NCBI RefSeq assembly: GCF_001046875.1
Contig: NZ_HF571038.1
Location: 816,214-880,213 of the forward strand
Reading direction: 5' to 3'
DNA: 64,000 nt
DNA from: Nostocoides jenkinsii Ben 74
GTDB taxonomy: Bacteria; Actinomycetota; Actinomycetes; Actinomycetales; Dermatophilaceae
Shown here one piece after another: positions 56,120-64,000 of this stretch. Each line of letters starts with the position of its first letter. Positions within the stretch are counted from its first letter, which is position 1. Under the pieces are notes generated by a model. It was not told the origin of the DNA. It saw nothing but the letters and a program-made list of their open reading frames with translations, and searched no databases. A program made the position numbers and the translations under genes.

Positions 56120-57441
56120 CCGCGCGCGCCGTGAGAAGTGCTCAGGCGGGGGGCGTCGCCGAGGTGGGAGCAATAGTGCGGCACGATCAGGTGACCTTCG
56201 GTCTGGAGGTCGGCGCGTATGCCGTGCCGCCCCAGAATCGCGGCCACCGCAGGACCGTCGAGCCGCCGCCGCGGCGAGTTCGCGCGCTAGGTCGAGCAGC
56301 GCGGTGCGGAATCCGGTCAGCTCTGATCGCACTTCCGCGGCAGATCGACCCGCTCATCGCCGACCACGCCGCGCAGTTGGCGGGTCTGCTCGTCATACGC
56401 GATCGCGATGCGGTCCTGCTCGGCGAGGACGGCAGTGAAGAGCAGTTTGGCGAGATTGTTCTCAGGATGTCGGCGACGCTGGAGAAGACCGGCCGCACAC
56501 CCTGGACCGGGAAGACGCCATTGCGATAGATCAGGTCGTGCACCGACGGATCGACCTCCACCTCGATCCCGAACCGCACGCGCACCGATTCGCGGACCCG
56601 CTCGCTCGCGGGCGATGAGTTCGACGAAGTCGGCATGCCGAAGCGAGGTATAGATCAAGTGGGTGTTGCCGGAGCGCGCCACCTGCTCGGGCTTGAACCG
56701 TTTGGTCAGCGCTGCCTTGATGTCCACCACCGTGACCTTGTCGGCATAGGCGGCGAAGACGTCCGCGTCGATGTCCGCCTCGGCGCCGCGCGTCGCCATC
56801 GCAAACGCCTCATCGAGGTTGCCACTGACGAGAATCAGGCTCCGCGAGCAGTCGATCGGCTCGTAAACCATCTTCAGGTTCTGCGCGCTTCGCGCCCGGG
56901 CAACCGCCTGATCCCACGTCAGCGCAGCCAGGGCTCGAGATCGTCGTCAAGGCGCAGCGTGTTCTTGAGGTCCCGGGCTTGCCAGATCCCGATCGTCGTG
57001 TCCGACACGTCCTCACCCGCCTTGCGCCGGCGGACCTGTTCGGCGGCTTGGTATGACAGTGAGGCGATGAGGTACTGCATGTCCGGGTTCTCCCGGCGCG
57101 CCAACCGGCCGTCGCTCAGCAACTCCCAAAAGTCACTGAACTTCGTGCTCGGGACCGGATTGCCTTCGTGGTCAAGGGTGTTGAAGCGCTGGTCGCCGCA
57201 CTAGATCGGTCTTGCCGACACCGGTCATCCCCCACAGGTTGATGATCGCGGGCCGCGAGAGCAGCTCTGGCGCGACGAACCACACGGTCACCGCGTCACA
57301 CAATTCGTCGATGATCCCGTCGATCCCGACGAAGTGTTCTTTGAGAGTGACGCGCGCCGCCTCCAGCCGCGCCCGACGAGCCGCGATGTCGGCGCGGTCC
57401 AGCGCGATGCGATTCGGCGCAAGCTCGCCCTCGACGCTCAT
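56120..57441 (-). pseudogene. Decayed AAA+ ATPase gene with several frameshifts
   Basis: Consecutive minus-strand pieces in changing frames join into one protein. From 57441 they are MSVEGELAPNRIALDRADIA, the Walker A in IINLWGMTGVGKTDLVRR (near 57210), then STKFSDFWELLSDGRLAR to LRLDDDLEPWLR (stop at 56919), then VYEPIDCSRSLILVSGNLDE to RHADFVELIARE, then GVFPVQGVRPVFSSVADIL, which resembles the C-domain of Clp-type ATPases, and a tail near 56190. At least three frame breaks (about 57200, 56900, 56610) and one more near 56450 exclude a functional product. The family is not further identified. Confidence 0.7.
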
Positions 57442-57584
57442 CCGGTCATGCTCCCATGCGCTCAACGTGGGCGTCCGGCCACAGCACACCCATACGACAC
57501 ACGGCGCAGCCGCAGGTTGCGATCCGGCCACGATCCGGGGCGGCCTCCCCACCGCTGACACCAGGCTGCCGGTAGGTTTCGCGC

Positions 57585-58325
57585 ATGGCGGAACCCCTCG
57601 TCGTCCTGTCGGGCGTCAATAAGCACTTCGGTGACCTGCACGTGCTCCGCGATATCAACCTGTCGGTTGATCGCGGCGAGGTGGTGATCGTGATCGGGCC
57701 GTCCGGCTCCGGCAAGTCGACGATGTGCCGCACGATCAATCGTCTGGAGACCTTCGAGAGCGGGTCTATCACCATCGACGGCAAGCCCCTGCCCCAGGAG
57801 GGCAAGGAGCTAGCGCAATTGCGCGCCGATGTCGGCATGGTCTTTCAGTCATTCAACCTGTTTGCACACAAGACGATTCTCGACAACGTCACCCTTGGCC
57901 CGATCAAGGTGCGCAAGAAGGCGAAGGCTGCCGCCGAAAAGGAAGCGATGGCCTTGTTGGAGCGGGTCGGCGTCGCCCATCAGGCGCAGAAATATCCCGC
58001 CCAACTCTCCGGCGGTCAGCAGCAGCGGGTCGCTATTGCGCGCAGCCTCGCCATGGAACCCAAGGTCATGCTGTTTGACGAGCCGACGTCCGCGCTCGAC
58101 CCGGAAATGATCAATGAGGTCTTGGACGTCATGATCGGCCTCGCCAAAGATGGCATGACAATGATCGTCGTCACCCACGAGATGGGTTTCGCCCGGAAGG
58201 CGGCCAACCGCGTGGTCTTCATGGCCGACGGCCAAATCGTCGAGCAGGCCACCCCCGAAGAGTTCTTCACCAACGCGCAGTCCAATCGCGCGAAGGACTT
58301 CCTCGCCAAGATCCTCACGCACTGA
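57585..58325 (+). CDS. gluA: Glutamate-type ABC transporter ATP-binding protein
   Basis: 246 residues. Walker A is GPSGSGKST near 36, the signature is [16 protein letters not shown] near 142, and Walker B is [14 protein letters not shown] near 163. This length and [20 protein letters not shown] mark the polar amino acid importer class. TAGGTT sits 6 bases before the ATG (leaderless). It is the first gene of a gluABCD-type operon. Confidence 0.93.
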
Positions 58326-58356
58326 CCTCAGCACCAGCACCGAAGGGAACCAATCA

Positions 58357-59172
58357 ATGAAGATCTCTCGTTTCGCAGCTCTCGCGGGTGCCGCATCGCT
58401 CGCGGTGGGCCTCAGCGCCTGCGGCGGCGGTGGCGGCGCCTCAGGTGGTGACTCGATCAAGATCGGCATCAAGTTCGACCAGCCCGGCCTGGGTCTGAAC
58501 GACGCCGGCAAGTACAGCGGCTTCGACGTCGATGTCGCGAACTACGTCGCCAAGGAACTCGGCAAGACCAAGGTCACCTTCGTCCAGGCCCCGAGCAAGC
58601 AGCGCGAAGACCTCATCGCGACCGGCCAGGTGGATCTGATCTTTGCGACCTACTCCATCACCGACGCCCGCAAGGAGAAGGTCTCTTTCGCCGGTCCCTA
58701 CTTCATCGCCGGCCAGGACCTCCTGGTGGCCGCCGACAGCACCATCACCGGGCCCAAGGACCTCGACGGCAAGAAGCTGTGCTCGGTCACCGGCTCGACG
58801 TCGGCGGACAACGTCAAGAAGGACTACCCCGGCGTTCAGCTGCAGAACTTCGACACCTACTCCAAGTGTTTGGACTTGGTCGTCAACGGCCAGCTCGACG
58901 CCCTCACCACCGACAACACTATCCTTGCCGGGTATGCCGCGCAGCCGGCTTACAAGGGCAAGCTCAAGGTCGTCGGTGCTCCCTTCTCGGAGGAGCGTTA
59001 CGGCGTCGGCCTGAAGAAGGGTGACGTCGAGCTGTGCAAGAAGGTCAACACCGCTCTGGAGAAGATGGTCAGCTCCGGGGAGTGGCAGAAGGCCGTCGAC
59101 AAGAACTTCGGCCCGGCCGGGTTCAAGGTGGATTCGGCCACCAACCCGCCGAAGCCGGACGCCTGTTCCTGA
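58357..59172 (+). CDS. gluB: Glutamate-type ABC transporter substrate-binding lipoprotein
   Basis: 271 residues. The lipobox GLSACGGG puts the lipidated Cys near residue 22. The SBP-bac-3 fold is seen in YSGFDVDVANYVAKELG near 50-66, TYSITDARKEKVSFAGPYF near 100-118 and a final KVNTALEKMVSSGEWQ. AAGGGAA lies upstream. The ligand is probably glutamate or a related polar amino acid, judged from operon type. Confidence 0.92.
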   Translation: MKISRFAALAGAASLAVGLSACGGGGGASGGDSIKIGIKFDQPGLGLNDAGKYSGFDVDVANYVAKELGKTKVTFVQAPSKQREDLIATGQVDLIFATYSITDARKEKVSFAGPYFIAGQDLLVAADSTITGPKDLDGKKLCSVTGSTSADNVKKDYPGVQLQNFDTYSKCLDLVVNGQLDALTTDNTILAGYAAQPAYKGKLKVVGAPFSEERYGVGLKKGDVELCKKVNTALEKMVSSGEWQKAVDKNFGPAGFKVDSATNPPKPDACS

Positions 59173-59271
59173 CCCTCTCGAACTGAAGCGGCCGACCGGA
59201 GGCGATGCACGGCATACGCCCCGGTCGGCCGAGTTCGGACCCCCGACCCCCGCGCGGAAGAAGAGTGACCC

Positions 59272-59952
59272 ATGGGTGAACTGTTCGCTCAGTTCGACGT
59301 TTGGAGTGCCTTCGGGCAGACCCTCTATCTCGCGTTCTTCTCGGCCATCGGGGCGCTGATCATCGGCACGATCCTGGCGATCATGCGCGTCGGGCCGGTG
59401 GGAATCTTCAACAAGGCGGGCGCGGCATACGTCAATCTCGTGCGCAACACGCCGCTGACGTTGATAATCACCTTCTGCCTGATCGCGCTGCATTACCAAC
59501 TCAAGATCTACCTCGCGCCCGAGGACAGCCCTACCTCCATCGTCGACAATGGCGTGCGCTGGGCGATCGTCGGCTTGACGGTCTACCACGCGGCCTTCGT
59601 CTGCGAGGCGTTGCGCAGCGGCATCAACACCGTTCCGACGGGGCAAGCCGAAGCGGCCCGCTCGATCGGTCTCACGTTCACTCAGAGCCTGCGCGAAGTC
59701 GTTCTCCCCCAGGCATTTAGAGGAGCGATCGCACCCATGGCATCGGTGCTGATCGCGCTCATCAAGAACACGACGGTCGCCTACGCCATCGGGGTCGCGG
59801 AGACGGCGGCCTTCATGCGCGACGGGCTGGAGTTCCGGCCGGATCTGAGTTTCCTGATCTTCGTCCTGGTGGCCGGATTCTTCGTCCTGCTGACGATGCC
59901 GCTTGGCATCGCGCTCACCCACCTCTCCCAGCGCCTGGCGGTGAAGCGATGA
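59272..59952 (+). CDS. gluC: Amino acid ABC transporter permease (GluC)
   Basis: 226 residues, about five helices. VYHAAFVCEALRSGINTVPTGQAEAARSIGL near 103-133 (quoted only by its ends: VYHAAFVCEAL and GQAEAARSIGL) is the EAA loop that contacts the ATPase. VNLVRNTPLTL near 56 is the usual family segment. The stop overlaps gluD by 4 bases. Confidence 0.92.
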   Translation: MGELFAQFDVWSAFGQTLYLAFFSAIGALIIGTILAIMRVGPVGIFNKAGAAYVNLVRNTPLTLIITFCLIALHYQLKIYLAPEDSPTSIVDNGVRWAIVGLTVYHAAFVCEALRSGINTVPTGQAEAARSIGLTFTQSLREVVLPQAFRGAIAPMASVLIALIKNTTVAYAIGVAETAAFMRDGLEFRPDLSFLIFVLVAGFFVLLTMPLGIALTHLSQRLAVKR

Positions 59953-60893
59953 GTTCCTCTGTCCTGTTCGACGCCCCCGGTCCCCGCGGGCAGCGCCGCA
60001 ATCAGATCATCGCCGTTATCGGTGGGGTGCTCCTGCTCGCGCTCGCCGTGCTGGTGATCCGCGCGCTCTACAACAACGGCGAGTTCACCTCGGCGAAGTG
60101 GAGTCCGTTCGGCCAATGGTCGACGTGGCGGTTCTATCTGCTCCTCGGCATCTGGAACACCATCAAAGCCGCGGTCGCCGCGGTGGCATTGGCGATGGCC
60201 TTCGGGTTCGTCTTCGGCGTGGGCCGCCTCTCGCAGAATCGCGCGATCCGCTGGATCAGCGGGGCGATCGTGGAGTTCTGCCGGGCCGTTCCCGTGCTGA
60301 TCATGATGATCTTCTTCTTCGGGATCTATGCCTACAACGGCGTCTTCCCCGCCGCCTGGAATCCGTTCGCGGCTGTCGTCACCGCTCTCACGCTCTACAA
60401 CGGCGCGGTCATCGCCGAACTCGTGCGCTCCGGCGTCTTCGGGCTCCCCAAGGGACAGGCAGAAGCTGGCTTGTCGATCGGGCTGACCCCGAGCCAGACC
60501 CTCGTGCAGATCCAGTTGCCGCAGGCCATCACGGCCATGCTGCCGGCGCTGGTGAGCCAGTTGGTCGTCATCCTGAAGGACACTGCGCTGGGCACGATCA
60601 TCACGTATCCCGAGTTGCTCCAGCAGGCGCAAAACCTCGCCTCCGCCCGATCCAATGTGATCCCCGCGCTACTGGTCGCCGCCGCGCTTTTTATCGGCAT
60701 CAACTACCTCCTCACCCTGCTCGCGGGCCGGCTTGAAGCCCGCATCAACCGCCGCGGCCACACCGCCGGCGCCGCCATCGGTCGCGCCCCGACCGTCCCC
60801 GGAGCCCCGATCGATCAGGGTGCCGCCGCCGCCATGACGCCGCACGAGGCCCGCGATGCCGCGGCGAAGGCCGGCCCGCAGGACCGCGTCTGA
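59949..60893 (+). CDS. gluD: Amino acid ABC transporter permease (GluD)
   Basis: 314 residues. IVEFCRAVPVLIMMIFFF near 106 and the EAA loop GQAEAGLSIGLTPSQTL near 168 pair it with GluC in the channel. The last 50 residues are a cytoplasmic Ala/Pro-rich tail. ATGA overlap with gluC. It is the last gene of the operon and convergent with the GH13-like gene, 24 bp away. Confidence 0.92.
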   Translation: MSSSVLFDAPGPRGQRRNQIIAVIGGVLLLALAVLVIRALYNNGEFTSAKWSPFGQWSTWRFYLLLGIWNTIKAAVAAVALAMAFGFVFGVGRLSQNRAIRWISGAIVEFCRAVPVLIMMIFFFGIYAYNGVFPAAWNPFAAVVTALTLYNGAVIAELVRSGVFGLPKGQAEAGLSIGLTPSQTLVQIQLPQAITAMLPALVSQLVVILKDTALGTIITYPELLQQAQNLASARSNVIPALLVAAALFIGINYLLTLLAGRLEARINRRGHTAGAAIGRAPTVPGAPIDQGAAAAMTPHEARDAAAKAGPQDRV

Positions 60894-60917: not shown

Positions 60918-63086
60918 TCAGAACGGAAGGTCGATGCCCAGCGCTCCGGTCGCCGGCGTGAACGAGATGGTCAGCGGGAGCGGCCCGGCGTCGAACCAAC
61001 CCACGCTCTCCCCGTCTGCACCCGGATAGCCGCCCGCACCGAACGTCTCCGTCCCGGCGACATTCGCGGCCACGCTGACCTGGTAGCTCCCGCCGGTCAA
61101 CTTCGGTGACGTCCAGGTGAACGTCCCGTCGCCGTCGGGGTCGATCAACCGCGTTCGCGCACAGTCGGGTTGATCGTCATACGCACAGCCGACCTCCTTT
61201 TGGAAGTCGCCGATAGCCGTGAAGACCTCATCGGGACTCGCCGCTCGCCCCTGGGTCGCCTTGGTGGACGACACCACCACATTCCCCCGGACAGCCCGGG
61301 CCACGGCCACCAATTCCAGCTCGGTTCCCGGTGCCTCCGGAGTCGAAACCATCGAGACGTATGGCGCATGGCTCCCTCCTGGGACCACCCGCCAATCGCT
61401 CGTCCCGGCCGGGCGGACGGCGAACGCGAGCGCCCCTACCGGTCCGGTCACCTCGGCCGCTACCGGCATGGCGACTTGGGCAAAGCTCGCCGGCCGGGCC
61501 GATACCTGCACCGTCACCGGGATCGTCGACGGGACGGGGCGATCGGCCTTCAACACCGACACTCCGACCTTGTCCAGCGAGACCTTGACCGCGCCCTCGC
61601 CGGTGGCGTCCGTGACGACCGGTTCGGAGACCGCCGAGCCGAAGATCGGCGTGAAGCTCGCCCCGGGAGTCTCGGCGACGATCGAAACGCGTCGGTCCTG
61701 GCCGGGGTTGCGCACGACGAGGTACTCCACCCCGGTGTCTGGATCGATACGAGACACGACGCCGATGCCGACTTCTTGGTCGTCGACGCCGCGGAACAGT
61801 TCGCGCTGGGAGCCACTGACCAATGCCGGGTTGGCCGCGCGCAGCGCCGCGAGTTCGGCGACATAGGCCGCGACCGGGTGCGTCACGTCGTAGCGATCGC
61901 GCGCGCCCGCGGCGCCACCGACGACAACTGCCTTGGCAAAGGCGGGCATCCGGGTCGCGAACTGGTCGCGGGGCCAGCCGTTTCCGGCGTCCACGCGCGT
62001 CAGACCTTGCTCGATTCCCGCCGGGATCATCGGCTGCCCGCCGAGCAGGAACAGGTCGCCGAGGGCCAGTTTGAGCCGTTCGACGAGTCCGGCCTTCGCC
62101 GGCTCGTTCAGGCGTCCCTCGTCCACCGTCAGCCCCCACCACGGAATCACGGTGGCGGCGTCCGGGAAGCCTTCCGCGGGAAGCTCACCCCCGAAGCGGT
62201 CGACGGCCCAGTCGGTCCAGTCATTCGACAGGGGCACCAGCCCGCTCGCCCTGACGAGCGCCCGCGGTGTCCCGACCTTCTCCGGACCCGTGTCGGCGTA
62301 GACGGACACGGACTGACCGAGGTGGGCCGCGGCATACGAACGCCATTGGGAGGCGGCCACGGACCACCACGACATCTGCGCGCGCTGAGGCTGCCTGAAA
62401 AGCGCGTCGGCGGGCCGAATCCGGAAGCCGTCGATGCCCGTGTCGAGCCAGCGGTTTGCGGTGACGGCGGTGGCGGGTTCGCCGTCCAGGACCACGTCGA
62501 GCACCACGCGCAGAGTGCGCTCGTGCGCCGCGGACACCAGCGCCCGCAGATCCTCCTCGGTCCCATACCGCGGGTCGATGGCCTCGGCGCCAACCACATC
62601 GACCGTGAGGCGGGGCGGTGAGTCCGTCGGAGCAGCCCAGATGGGGCCGAGCACGATCGTGGTCACGCCGAGCTCGGCGAGATAGTCCAGGCGGGCCGTC
62701 ACCCCAGCCAGGTCCCCGCCGTGGAAGTAGTCAGCGCGGGTGGGGTCGAAGCCGGTCTTTTCGGGACCGCCCGTGCGGCCTCCCTCGTCGTTGCTCGGAT
62801 CGCCATTGGCGAAGCGGTCGACCGTGAGTTCATAGAAGAGGTCCGGTCGGGCCGGTGCCACGGCGGCCAGGATGGTGTCGATCTCCTTCTCGGACAGCGT
62901 GACCGGTCCGCTGGAGCGGACGTCTCGCACCCCTGGGGTCGCGGTGTTGGCGTCGGGTGCTCCGGCGCTCGGCGATGCGACGCCCGGTGACGGCGAGTCG
63001 AGGTGGCGCCACGCGGCATACGCCATCCCCAGCAGCATCACGAGGGCGAGGGCGAGGACCGTTCGCAGGCGGGCAACTCGTCCCAT
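60918..63086 (-). CDS. Membrane-anchored GH13-like protein with degenerate active site
   Basis: 722 residues. An N-terminal signal anchor (TVLALALVMLLGMAYAAW) is followed by an alpha-amylase-type start (PDLFYELTVDRFANGDPSND, then YFHGGDLAGVTARLDYLAELG). The catalytic landmarks are lost. After VVLDVVL the Asn-His and the whole B domain are missing. The nucleophile motif GFRxD reads GFRIRPADAL, and the acid Glu strand reads VSVYADTG. Beta-sandwich domains follow (about 430-722). It probably binds alpha-glucans or has a regulatory or structural role rather than hydrolysing them. Confidence 0.8.
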   Translation of the reverse strand: MGRVARLRTVLALALVMLLGMAYAAWRHLDSPSPGVASPSAGAPDANTATPGVRDVRSSGPVTLSEKEIDTILAAVAPARPDLFYELTVDRFANGDPSNDEGGRTGGPEKTGFDPTRADYFHGGDLAGVTARLDYLAELGVTTIVLGPIWAAPTDSPPRLTVDVVGAEAIDPRYGTEEDLRALVSAAHERTLRVVLDVVLDGEPATAVTANRWLDTGIDGFRIRPADALFRQPQRAQMSWWSVAASQWRSYAAAHLGQSVSVYADTGPEKVGTPRALVRASGLVPLSNDWTDWAVDRFGGELPAEGFPDAATVIPWWGLTVDEGRLNEPAKAGLVERLKLALGDLFLLGGQPMIPAGIEQGLTRVDAGNGWPRDQFATRMPAFAKAVVVGGAAGARDRYDVTHPVAAYVAELAALRAANPALVSGSQRELFRGVDDQEVGIGVVSRIDPDTGVEYLVVRNPGQDRRVSIVAETPGASFTPIFGSAVSEPVVTDATGEGAVKVSLDKVGVSVLKADRPVPSTIPVTVQVSARPASFAQVAMPVAAEVTGPVGALAFAVRPAGTSDWRVVPGGSHAPYVSMVSTPEAPGTELELVAVARAVRGNVVVSSTKATQGRAASPDEVFTAIGDFQKEVGCAYDDQPDCARTRLIDPDGDGTFTWTSPKLTGGSYQVSVAANVAGTETFGAGGYPGADGESVGWFDAGPLPLTISFTPATGALGIDLPF

Positions 63087-63113: not shown

Positions 63114-63755
63114 TCAGCCACGCAGCCACGTGAGAACGGCAAGCACGCGGCGATGGTCGTCTACCGCAACGGGCAGATCGAGCTTGGTGAAGATGTTGTT
63201 GATGTGCTTGGCCACGGCCTTCTCGGTGATGACCAAGGCGGCGGCGATGGCCCCATTCGAGCGACCCTGAGCGATCAATTCCATCACTTCCCGTTCGCGC
63301 GGGGAGAGCCGGTCGACGGGTTGCGCCCGCGGCCGATTCATCAGTGCGGCAACGACTTCTGGGTCGAGCACGGTGCCACCGGCGGCAACCCGACGCACGC
63401 TATCGACAAACTCCGTGGTGTCCGCGACCCGGTCTTTCAGTAGGTAACCGATGGCGCCGTCGCCCGAAGCGAGGAGCTCGCGGGCATACAACTGCTCGAC
63501 ATACTGGCTGAGGACCACCACCGGGAAGCCGGGGCGCGCGGCTCTCGCCGCGATCGCCGCCCGCAGACCCTCGTCACTGAACGTCGGTGGCAGCCGAACG
63601 TCAAGGATCGCGACGTCGACGTCCGGTCGTTGCAATGCCTCGGCCAGCCCGTCCGTGCCGGCGAGAGCCTCGACGACCTGGCAGTCGTAGGCCGCGAGCA
63701 GCCGGGTCAGGCCATCCCGGAGGAGGGCGTGGTCTTCGGCGACAACCACCCGCAT
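63114..63755 (-). CDS. NarL/LuxR-type response regulator
   Basis: 213 residues. The receiver domain has Glu-Asp at the start (VVVAEDHALLRDG), the phosphoacceptor Asp near 53 in VDVAILDVRLPP and a Lys in GYLLKDRVAD near 105. The DNA-binding domain is LSPREREVMELIAQGRSN near 150. It is partner of the kinase gene just upstream, with which it overlaps by 49 bp. Confidence 0.93.
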   Translation of the reverse strand: MRVVVAEDHALLRDGLTRLLAAYDCQVVEALAGTDGLAEALQRPDVDVAILDVRLPPTFSDEGLRAAIAARAARPGFPVVVLSQYVEQLYARELLASGDGAIGYLLKDRVADTTEFVDSVRRVAAGGTVLDPEVVAALMNRPRAQPVDRLSPREREVMELIAQGRSNGAIAAALVITEKAVAKHINNIFTKLDLPVAVDDHRRVLAVLTWLRG

Positions 63756-64000
63756 GGCACCTCCACCGTGATCACTGTCGGCCCGCCAACCGGACTCGAC
63801 ACCTCCATCGTGCCGTCAAATGCCGCCAACCGGCGCGCGATACCCGCCAGACCGGTCCCTCGATCGACGCGCGCGCCGCCGCGACCGTCGTCACCCACTT
63901 GCACCCGCAACACGTCCTCGCGCGCCCCGATCACGACCCAGGCCGCGGTCGCGCCGGAGTGCTTCACGGCGTTCGCCAGGAATTCGGCAGTCGCGAAATA
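63707..64000 (-). CDS. Sensor histidine kinase, C-terminal part (cut by window edge)
   Basis: 98 codons are inside the window, without the start. The HATPase domain is visible: the N box AEFLANAVKHSGATAA, then VGDDGRGG and GTGLAGIARRLAAFDG, ending VEVPCGW and a short tail. This arrangement is the HisKA_3 (NarX/DesK) type that pairs with LuxR-type regulators. The 49-bp overlap with the regulator gene indicates coupled translation. Confidence 0.88.
   Translation of the reverse strand, partial: YFATAEFLANAVKHSGATAAWVVIGAREDVLRVQVGDDGRGGARVDRGTGLAGIARRLAAFDGTMEVSSPVGGPTVITVEVPCGWLSPKTTPSSGMA

Follow-up and report, generated by a model that had tools for sequence, protein, structure and literature searches.

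Our comparisons support P0001, a protein of Nostocoides jenkinsii Ben 74 (genome of 3.81 Mb, one contig), as a putative GH13 pseudoenzyme that lacks the B domain, the Asn-His pair of region I and the catalytic nucleophile. Judged by its sequence, it is a divergent paralog of an intact GH13 protein, P0002, encoded nearby. Ordinary GH13 catalysis has very likely been lost, and the explanation that we favor, with somewhat better than even confidence, is that P0001 serves as an exported, non-catalytic scaffold, probably membrane-anchored, which would act by protein contact.

Gene and domain organization

P0001 is encoded at 60918-63086 on the minus strand of the window, by which we mean the whole 64,000-nucleotide stretch of DNA analysed. 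The open reading frame begins with ATG, codes for 722 residues and is free of internal stops. The initial annotation had described a frame with an alpha-amylase-like start, which agrees with the Pfam Alpha-amylase match (E-value 3.3e-23, covering profile positions 5-89 of 446 only). The order of domains is an N-terminal hydrophobic helix, a GH13 barrel, domain C, an Ig-like domain and an X25 module; all coordinates given below for parts of P0001 are on the minus strand. The model has a helix at residues 2-27 (63006..63083), and the most hydrophobic 19-residue stretch begins at residue 7. This segment had been called a membrane anchor. The hydrophobic helix is there, but it may also be a signal peptide cleaved at AYA-A; we consider P0001 probably anchored, and its export is plausible from the N-terminus. 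A Ser/Pro/Ala-rich linker is seen in the translation at residues 28-55 (62922..63005), with pLDDT below 50 for residues 27-53.

The first part of the barrel, residues 84-200 (62487..62837), is matched by a profile of intact relatives (i-Evalue 3.3e-33) and contains barrel strands 1-3, which the model places at residues 84-87, 143-146 and 193-200. Within it, the motif FANGDPSND (residues 92-100; 62787..62813) and the GGD that goes with it (residues 123-125; 62712-62720) are aligned with the same residues in Thermoactinomyces vulgaris amylase II, where we take them to be calcium ligands. Domain C is modelled as a beta-sandwich at about residues 426-517 (61536..61811), and a profile match to residues 331-483 extends into it. 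The strands at about residues 525-611 (61254..61514) are those of a beta domain which we label Ig-like, a name that we infer from the model. The X25 module, at about residues 621-722 (60921..61226), was identified by Pfam (PF22058, E-value 8.4e-10, 39.1 bits against a cut-off of 27).

The AlphaFold model of P0001 has a pLDDT of 72.9 and a pTM of 0.71. It was computed from alignment A5 and replaced a model from alignment A4 with a pLDDT of 61.5; the sequences aligned for it are those of intact enzymes, whose fold may have been forced on the model. The overlay on GH13 structures, which had been proposed as a check, covered domain C and the barrel as far as it is modelled, and the best match was T. 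vulgaris amylase II (Z 28.1, 349 residues, 3.3 A). Residues 265-318 and 321-324 have pLDDT below 50, and the model does not define barrel strands 6 and 7.

Altered catalytic regions and the missing B domain

The passages of PMC11239784 that define GH13 name a (beta/alpha)8 barrel, an Asp/Glu/Asp triad on strands 4, 5 and 7, a retaining mechanism and four to seven conserved sequence regions, with domain B typical but not strict. In P0001, regions I and II are recognizable though altered, and a profile search detected neither region III nor region IV. P0001 has LDVVLDGE at region I, against FDIVTNHT in P0002, so the Asn-His is gone as initially annotated; the region I remnant DVVLDG (residues 197-202) and the site of the missing B domain lie at 62457..62498. 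Region II (residues 220-225; 62412..62429) reads GFRIRP against GFRIDT in P0002, and Arg224 thus stands at the position of the nucleophile Asp. The annotated loss of this Asp is borne out, with the refinement that the Arg of the GFRxD motif is retained (R222). The distance from the region I Asp to GFR is 23 residues in P0001 and 129 in P0002, hence about 106 residues, corresponding to the B domain between strand 3 and helix 3, are absent between regions I and II, and the claim that the whole domain was lost is upheld.

We are less sure of the third claimed loss, that of the acid Glu, though it is likely: residues 224-330 are too diverged for a firm alignment. The profile search detected no homology within these residues, so the assignments of D265 and D322 rest on MAFFT. 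The region III candidate SVYADTG (residues 261-267; 62286..62306) stands opposite FMFGEV in some alignments only: D265 falls on the acid Glu column in two alignments, and that column is a gap in P0001 in alignments A4 and A5. The reading of VYADTG as region III is therefore alignment-dependent, while in none of four alignments checked does P0001 have a Glu at region III. The region IV candidate TVDEGRL (residues 320-326; 62109..62129), opposite NHDMGR, lies in a low-confidence region of the model. D322 falls on the region IV Asp column in several alignments, all made by MAFFT, and may represent the retained Asp. The YHGYW stretch is missing. At 180 near-invariant columns derived from 55 intact rows, P0001 keeps 66, deletes 51 and changes 63.

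Conservation of the changed residues in homologues was the second check that had been proposed. The 106 aligned relative loci (103 distinct) were selected for copies in which the motifs of regions I, II and IV are intact. Of the 103 distinct copies, 103 have GE[VIA] somewhere between regions II and IV (GEV 96, GEA 5, GEI 2), counted by position between the two regions rather than by its place row by row. When all six frames were searched with profiles built from intact relatives, no other frame contained the missing GH13 parts, which rules out a frameshift artefact as the source of the losses.

That P0001 is an active enzyme using other residues would be favored by D265 and D322, which may fill two of the three catalytic positions. 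However, the nucleophile position is Arg, the B domain is absent, and the region I His (and, as aligned, the region IV His) is lost together with the YHGYW stretch; we consider this reading hardly credible.

The X25 module

The module retains both Cys and the DPDGDG motif. In a table composed of the 74 of 106 rows having the D.DGD motif, P0002 and P0001, three columns are conserved as Trp, Trp and Lys in 99%, 95% and 100%, respectively, of the 75 rows that include P0002, and P0001 has Asp, Gly and Ser in their place. The family Lys and second Trp are seven residues apart, the same spacing as K654 and W661 of Sca5, which contact maltotriose in its X25-2b according to the relevant passages of PMC9112005. 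They fall on a Lys and a Trp of pullulanase 2wan_A and, in a weak second alignment, on a Lys and a Trp of 7rpy_A, which we infer to be the Sca5 structure. The Trp platform and Lys described for glucan contact in those parts of PMC9112005 are thus not found in P0001, and the protein probably does not bind alpha-glucans in the way of the family. The same passages report no binding by Sca5 constructs with a single X25, so that P0002 itself may or may not bind glucan. The loss of the three X25 residues and the presence of an intact paralog upstream were not part of the initial annotation.

Origin and selection

P0002 is an 829-residue GH13 protein with all catalytic motifs and an X25 module, encoded 3.6 kb upstream of P0001, beyond the window. 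Both have a hydrophobic N-terminal segment and the lead-in GPVTL, and both carry one X25 module at the C-terminus. Proteins of the P0002 type, found in this genome, in the genus-mate G001 and in Tetrasphaera australiensis Ben110, further resemble P0001 in the start of the barrel, domain C and the Ig-like domain. Unlike P0001, P0002 has its B domain and catalytic motifs as well as the Trp/Trp/Lys of X25; it is 34% identical to P0001 and 95% identical to its orthologue in G001. Longer relatives, many of about 2000 residues, are widespread in actinobacteria. The T. australiensis Ben110 orthologue of P0002 (L128 / L043) is distributed over two frames, through either a sequencing error or a real break.

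We searched several sets for an orthologue of P0001. None of three genus-mates has the gene at this locus. None was found among 58 relatives (E-value 1e-10), where the best non-self match was the intact G001 protein (170.7 bits), nor in 186 genomes of the family (E-value 1e-45), of which the two matched were this genome and G001 with its intact GH13 protein. In 396 genomes of the order and 394 of the class (E-value 1e-33), 38 and 7 matched, respectively, again with no orthologue, and matches outside the genus reached at most 135 bits; the family, order and class draws overlap, and scoring was limited to the top 6 or 2 candidates from each genome. Six peptide patterns found no orthologue in the genome contigs set, and none was found in viral contigs. 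Among 156 plasmid records, none covers 80% of the P0001 query. The relatives taken from the genome contigs are the best 80 of 410 by similarity to P0002, and the other 330 may include a P0001 orthologue.

In the tree, P0002 and its G001 orthologue are nearest to P0001 by path; the place of P0001 is unsure, and its end branch amounts to 10 changes per column. The tree took 40 of 41 loci; L030 was left out, its reading frame being broken ahead of the last motif. A recent duplication of P0002 in the lineage of this genome is not supported by the 12 sites where P0002 differs from its G001 orthologue: P0001 sides with P0002 at 1 of them, with the G001 copy at 4 and with neither at 7. The corresponding comparison with T. 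australiensis (36 vs 15) was set aside for an apparent frameshift in the record.

When neutral drift of P0002 down to about 43% identity was simulated, none of 180 runs remained stop-free, and the intact frame of P0001 is not the product of neutral drift. Over 544 codons outside residues 196-340, identity between P0001 and P0002 at the three codon positions is 0.515, 0.579 and 0.436, against 0.301, 0.255 and 0.385 by chance. GC3 is 0.838 for P0001 and 0.724-0.900 for 15 other genes. The drift simulation, codon-position identity and GC3 together point to selection on P0001 for much of its history, though not necessarily today; as no orthologue was found, present-day selection is not measurable. 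The codon-usage correlation of P0001 is 0.80, compared with 0.82-0.97 for 14 of the 15 genes and 0.77 for pfkB, the reference having been built from 12 of these 15 genes, which favors them.

P0001 might instead be a functionless relic of a GH13 gene that is now decaying, its frame still intact as the decay is recent. It is known from a single genome in the sets searched, its branch in the tree is extreme, its codon-usage correlation is lower, and the genome carries a broken M41 peptidase gene close by. The 722 intact codons that no neutral run retained and the codon-position bias argue against decay, as does the loss of catalytic and X25 residues while framework motifs stay, and we regard a relic as unlikely, if worth keeping in mind.

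Comparison with non-enzymatic GH13 proteins

Passages of PMC11239784 and PMC8537225 name rBAT and 4F2hc as non-enzymatic members of GH13. The ectodomain of 4F2hc (SLC3A2), as described in parts of PMC8537225, has a GH13 barrel and domain C behind a membrane segment, a build that P0001 may share; like P0001 it is without domain B, and in our alignment its region II likewise has Arg at the nucleophile position. It differs in being an animal protein that serves SLC7 amino-acid carriers as ancillary subunit, and X25 is not described for it; the losses of domain B and of the nucleophile were probably independent in the two proteins. 4F2hc is not among the best 50 overlay matches listed for the P0001 model, which excludes nothing. 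rBAT (SLC3A1) also has a GH13 ectodomain in a non-enzymatic role, but the human protein keeps domain B and the catalytic triad (PMC8537225, in part). Non-catalytic or regulatory roles are reported for the amylase-family proteins maize isoamylase 1/2 (PMC12510319) and fungal AmyD (PMC5412281), which are eukaryotic and are likened to P0001 by description rather than by sequence. T. vulgaris amylase II (neopullulanase 2) shares the calcium-site motif with P0001 and is its best PDB match by sequence as well as by overlay. In contrast to P0001, it is an active enzyme with a domain B.

GH13 pseudoenzymes are already known, and the bacterial variant without domain B appears to be new: among the papers listed in our literature searches there was no bacterial GH13 pseudoenzyme without this domain. 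A passage of PMC11239784 states that 17 of 364 GH13 sequences without the full catalytic set were put aside as likely errors or ongoing pseudogenization. P0001 has an intact frame and keeps its framework motifs without an active site or the residues expected to bind sugar, which suggests that some sequences of this kind may be genuine proteins that have taken on a new role. P0001 and P0002, 3.6 kb apart, form a defined pair of dead and active paralogs on which to test this idea.

Genomic neighbourhood and function

On the minus strand the order of genes is P0002, a pfkB-like kinase, CrcB-like frames, a sensor kinase, a response regulator and P0001. The LuxR-type response regulator (63114..63755, minus strand; Pfam Response_reg and GerE) lies directly upstream of P0001, its stop codon 27 bp ahead of the P0001 start codon, and the HisKA_3 sensor kinase gene has its 3' end at 63707..64000 (minus strand) and continues past the window. 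The two-component system had thus been placed correctly beside P0001. On the other side, 24 bp away and convergent with P0001, an amino-acid-type ABC importer (57585..60893, plus strand) comprises an ATPase, a family 3 solute-binding protein and two permeases. In this genome P0001 and the importer form an insertion flanked by the response regulator and the M41 remnants. Three of three genus-mates have the two-component system without P0001 beside it, hence it is not specific to P0001; next to it are an MFS gene in G002 and G003, and an M41 peptidase followed by an MFS gene in G001. Scans for promoters and terminators at P0001 found none.

The initial annotation had proposed that P0001 is an exported glucan sensor, which would signal to the adjacent two-component system. 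The gene order and the amylase-like fold of the model would fit this, and passages of PMC9123174 propose a glycogen-like alpha-glucan capsule for former-Tetrasphaera relatives; that source places T. australiensis in Tetrasphaera_A and the former Tetrasphaera in Dermatophilaceae. However, the active site, the YHGYW stretch and the X25 Trp/Trp/Lys are gone, and the genus-mates have the two-component system without P0001. A glucan sensor is in our view improbable, and the loss of catalytic and X25 residues with the framework motifs kept argues against it and for a role in protein contact.

In the scaffold explanation, P0001 is a GH13 paralog of the anchored P0002. Its sequence shows that the B domain, the Asn-His pair, the nucleophile and the Trp/Trp/Lys set of X25 have been lost; it still has the calcium motif and the first part of the barrel, as well as domain C and both Cys of X25. 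Such a protein would not cleave alpha-glucans and, less certainly, would have been retained for its folded body. It might contact a protein outside the membrane, for example the active P0002 or the sensor kinase encoded upstream, and naming either as the partner is a guess.

The likeness to 4F2hc raises a further reading, in which P0001 would be an ancillary transporter subunit, perhaps for the adjacent ABC importer. The absence of domain B (passages of PMC8537225), the hydrophobic N-terminal segment and the Arg at the nucleophile position are as in 4F2hc, and the importer genes belong to the same insertion. The importer and P0001 genes are convergent, though, and the partners of 4F2hc in that description (PMC8537225, in part) are SLC7 carriers and not ABC importers. 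Moreover, T. australiensis, which is without P0001, has elsewhere a solute-binding protein 86% identical to that of the importer. We consider such a subunit very improbable. Hardly better are the chances of a bacterial counterpart of 4F2hc that would have lost domain B and exchanged Asp for Arg independently, with its N-terminal membrane segment retained, to become an ancillary, chaperone-like subunit of a membrane protein, for example the importer or the sensor kinase.

Several observations concern the surrounding genes. The M41-peptidase-like gene is in pieces at 56149-57480 (minus strand), in two frames with one part not found, and is intact with 656 residues in G001. The CrcB-like frames lie just past the window (L039 11215-11979), between pfkB and the sensor kinase; an MMPL-like transporter gene takes their position in G001 and G002 and is beside the kinase also in G003, the CrcB-like and MMPL-like labels being our assumption. 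A modified-peptide cluster is suggested just past the window (L039 16319-18121 and L040 2-3077) by frames that we take to be YcaO-like, ABC transporter and lantibiotic-dehydratase-like.
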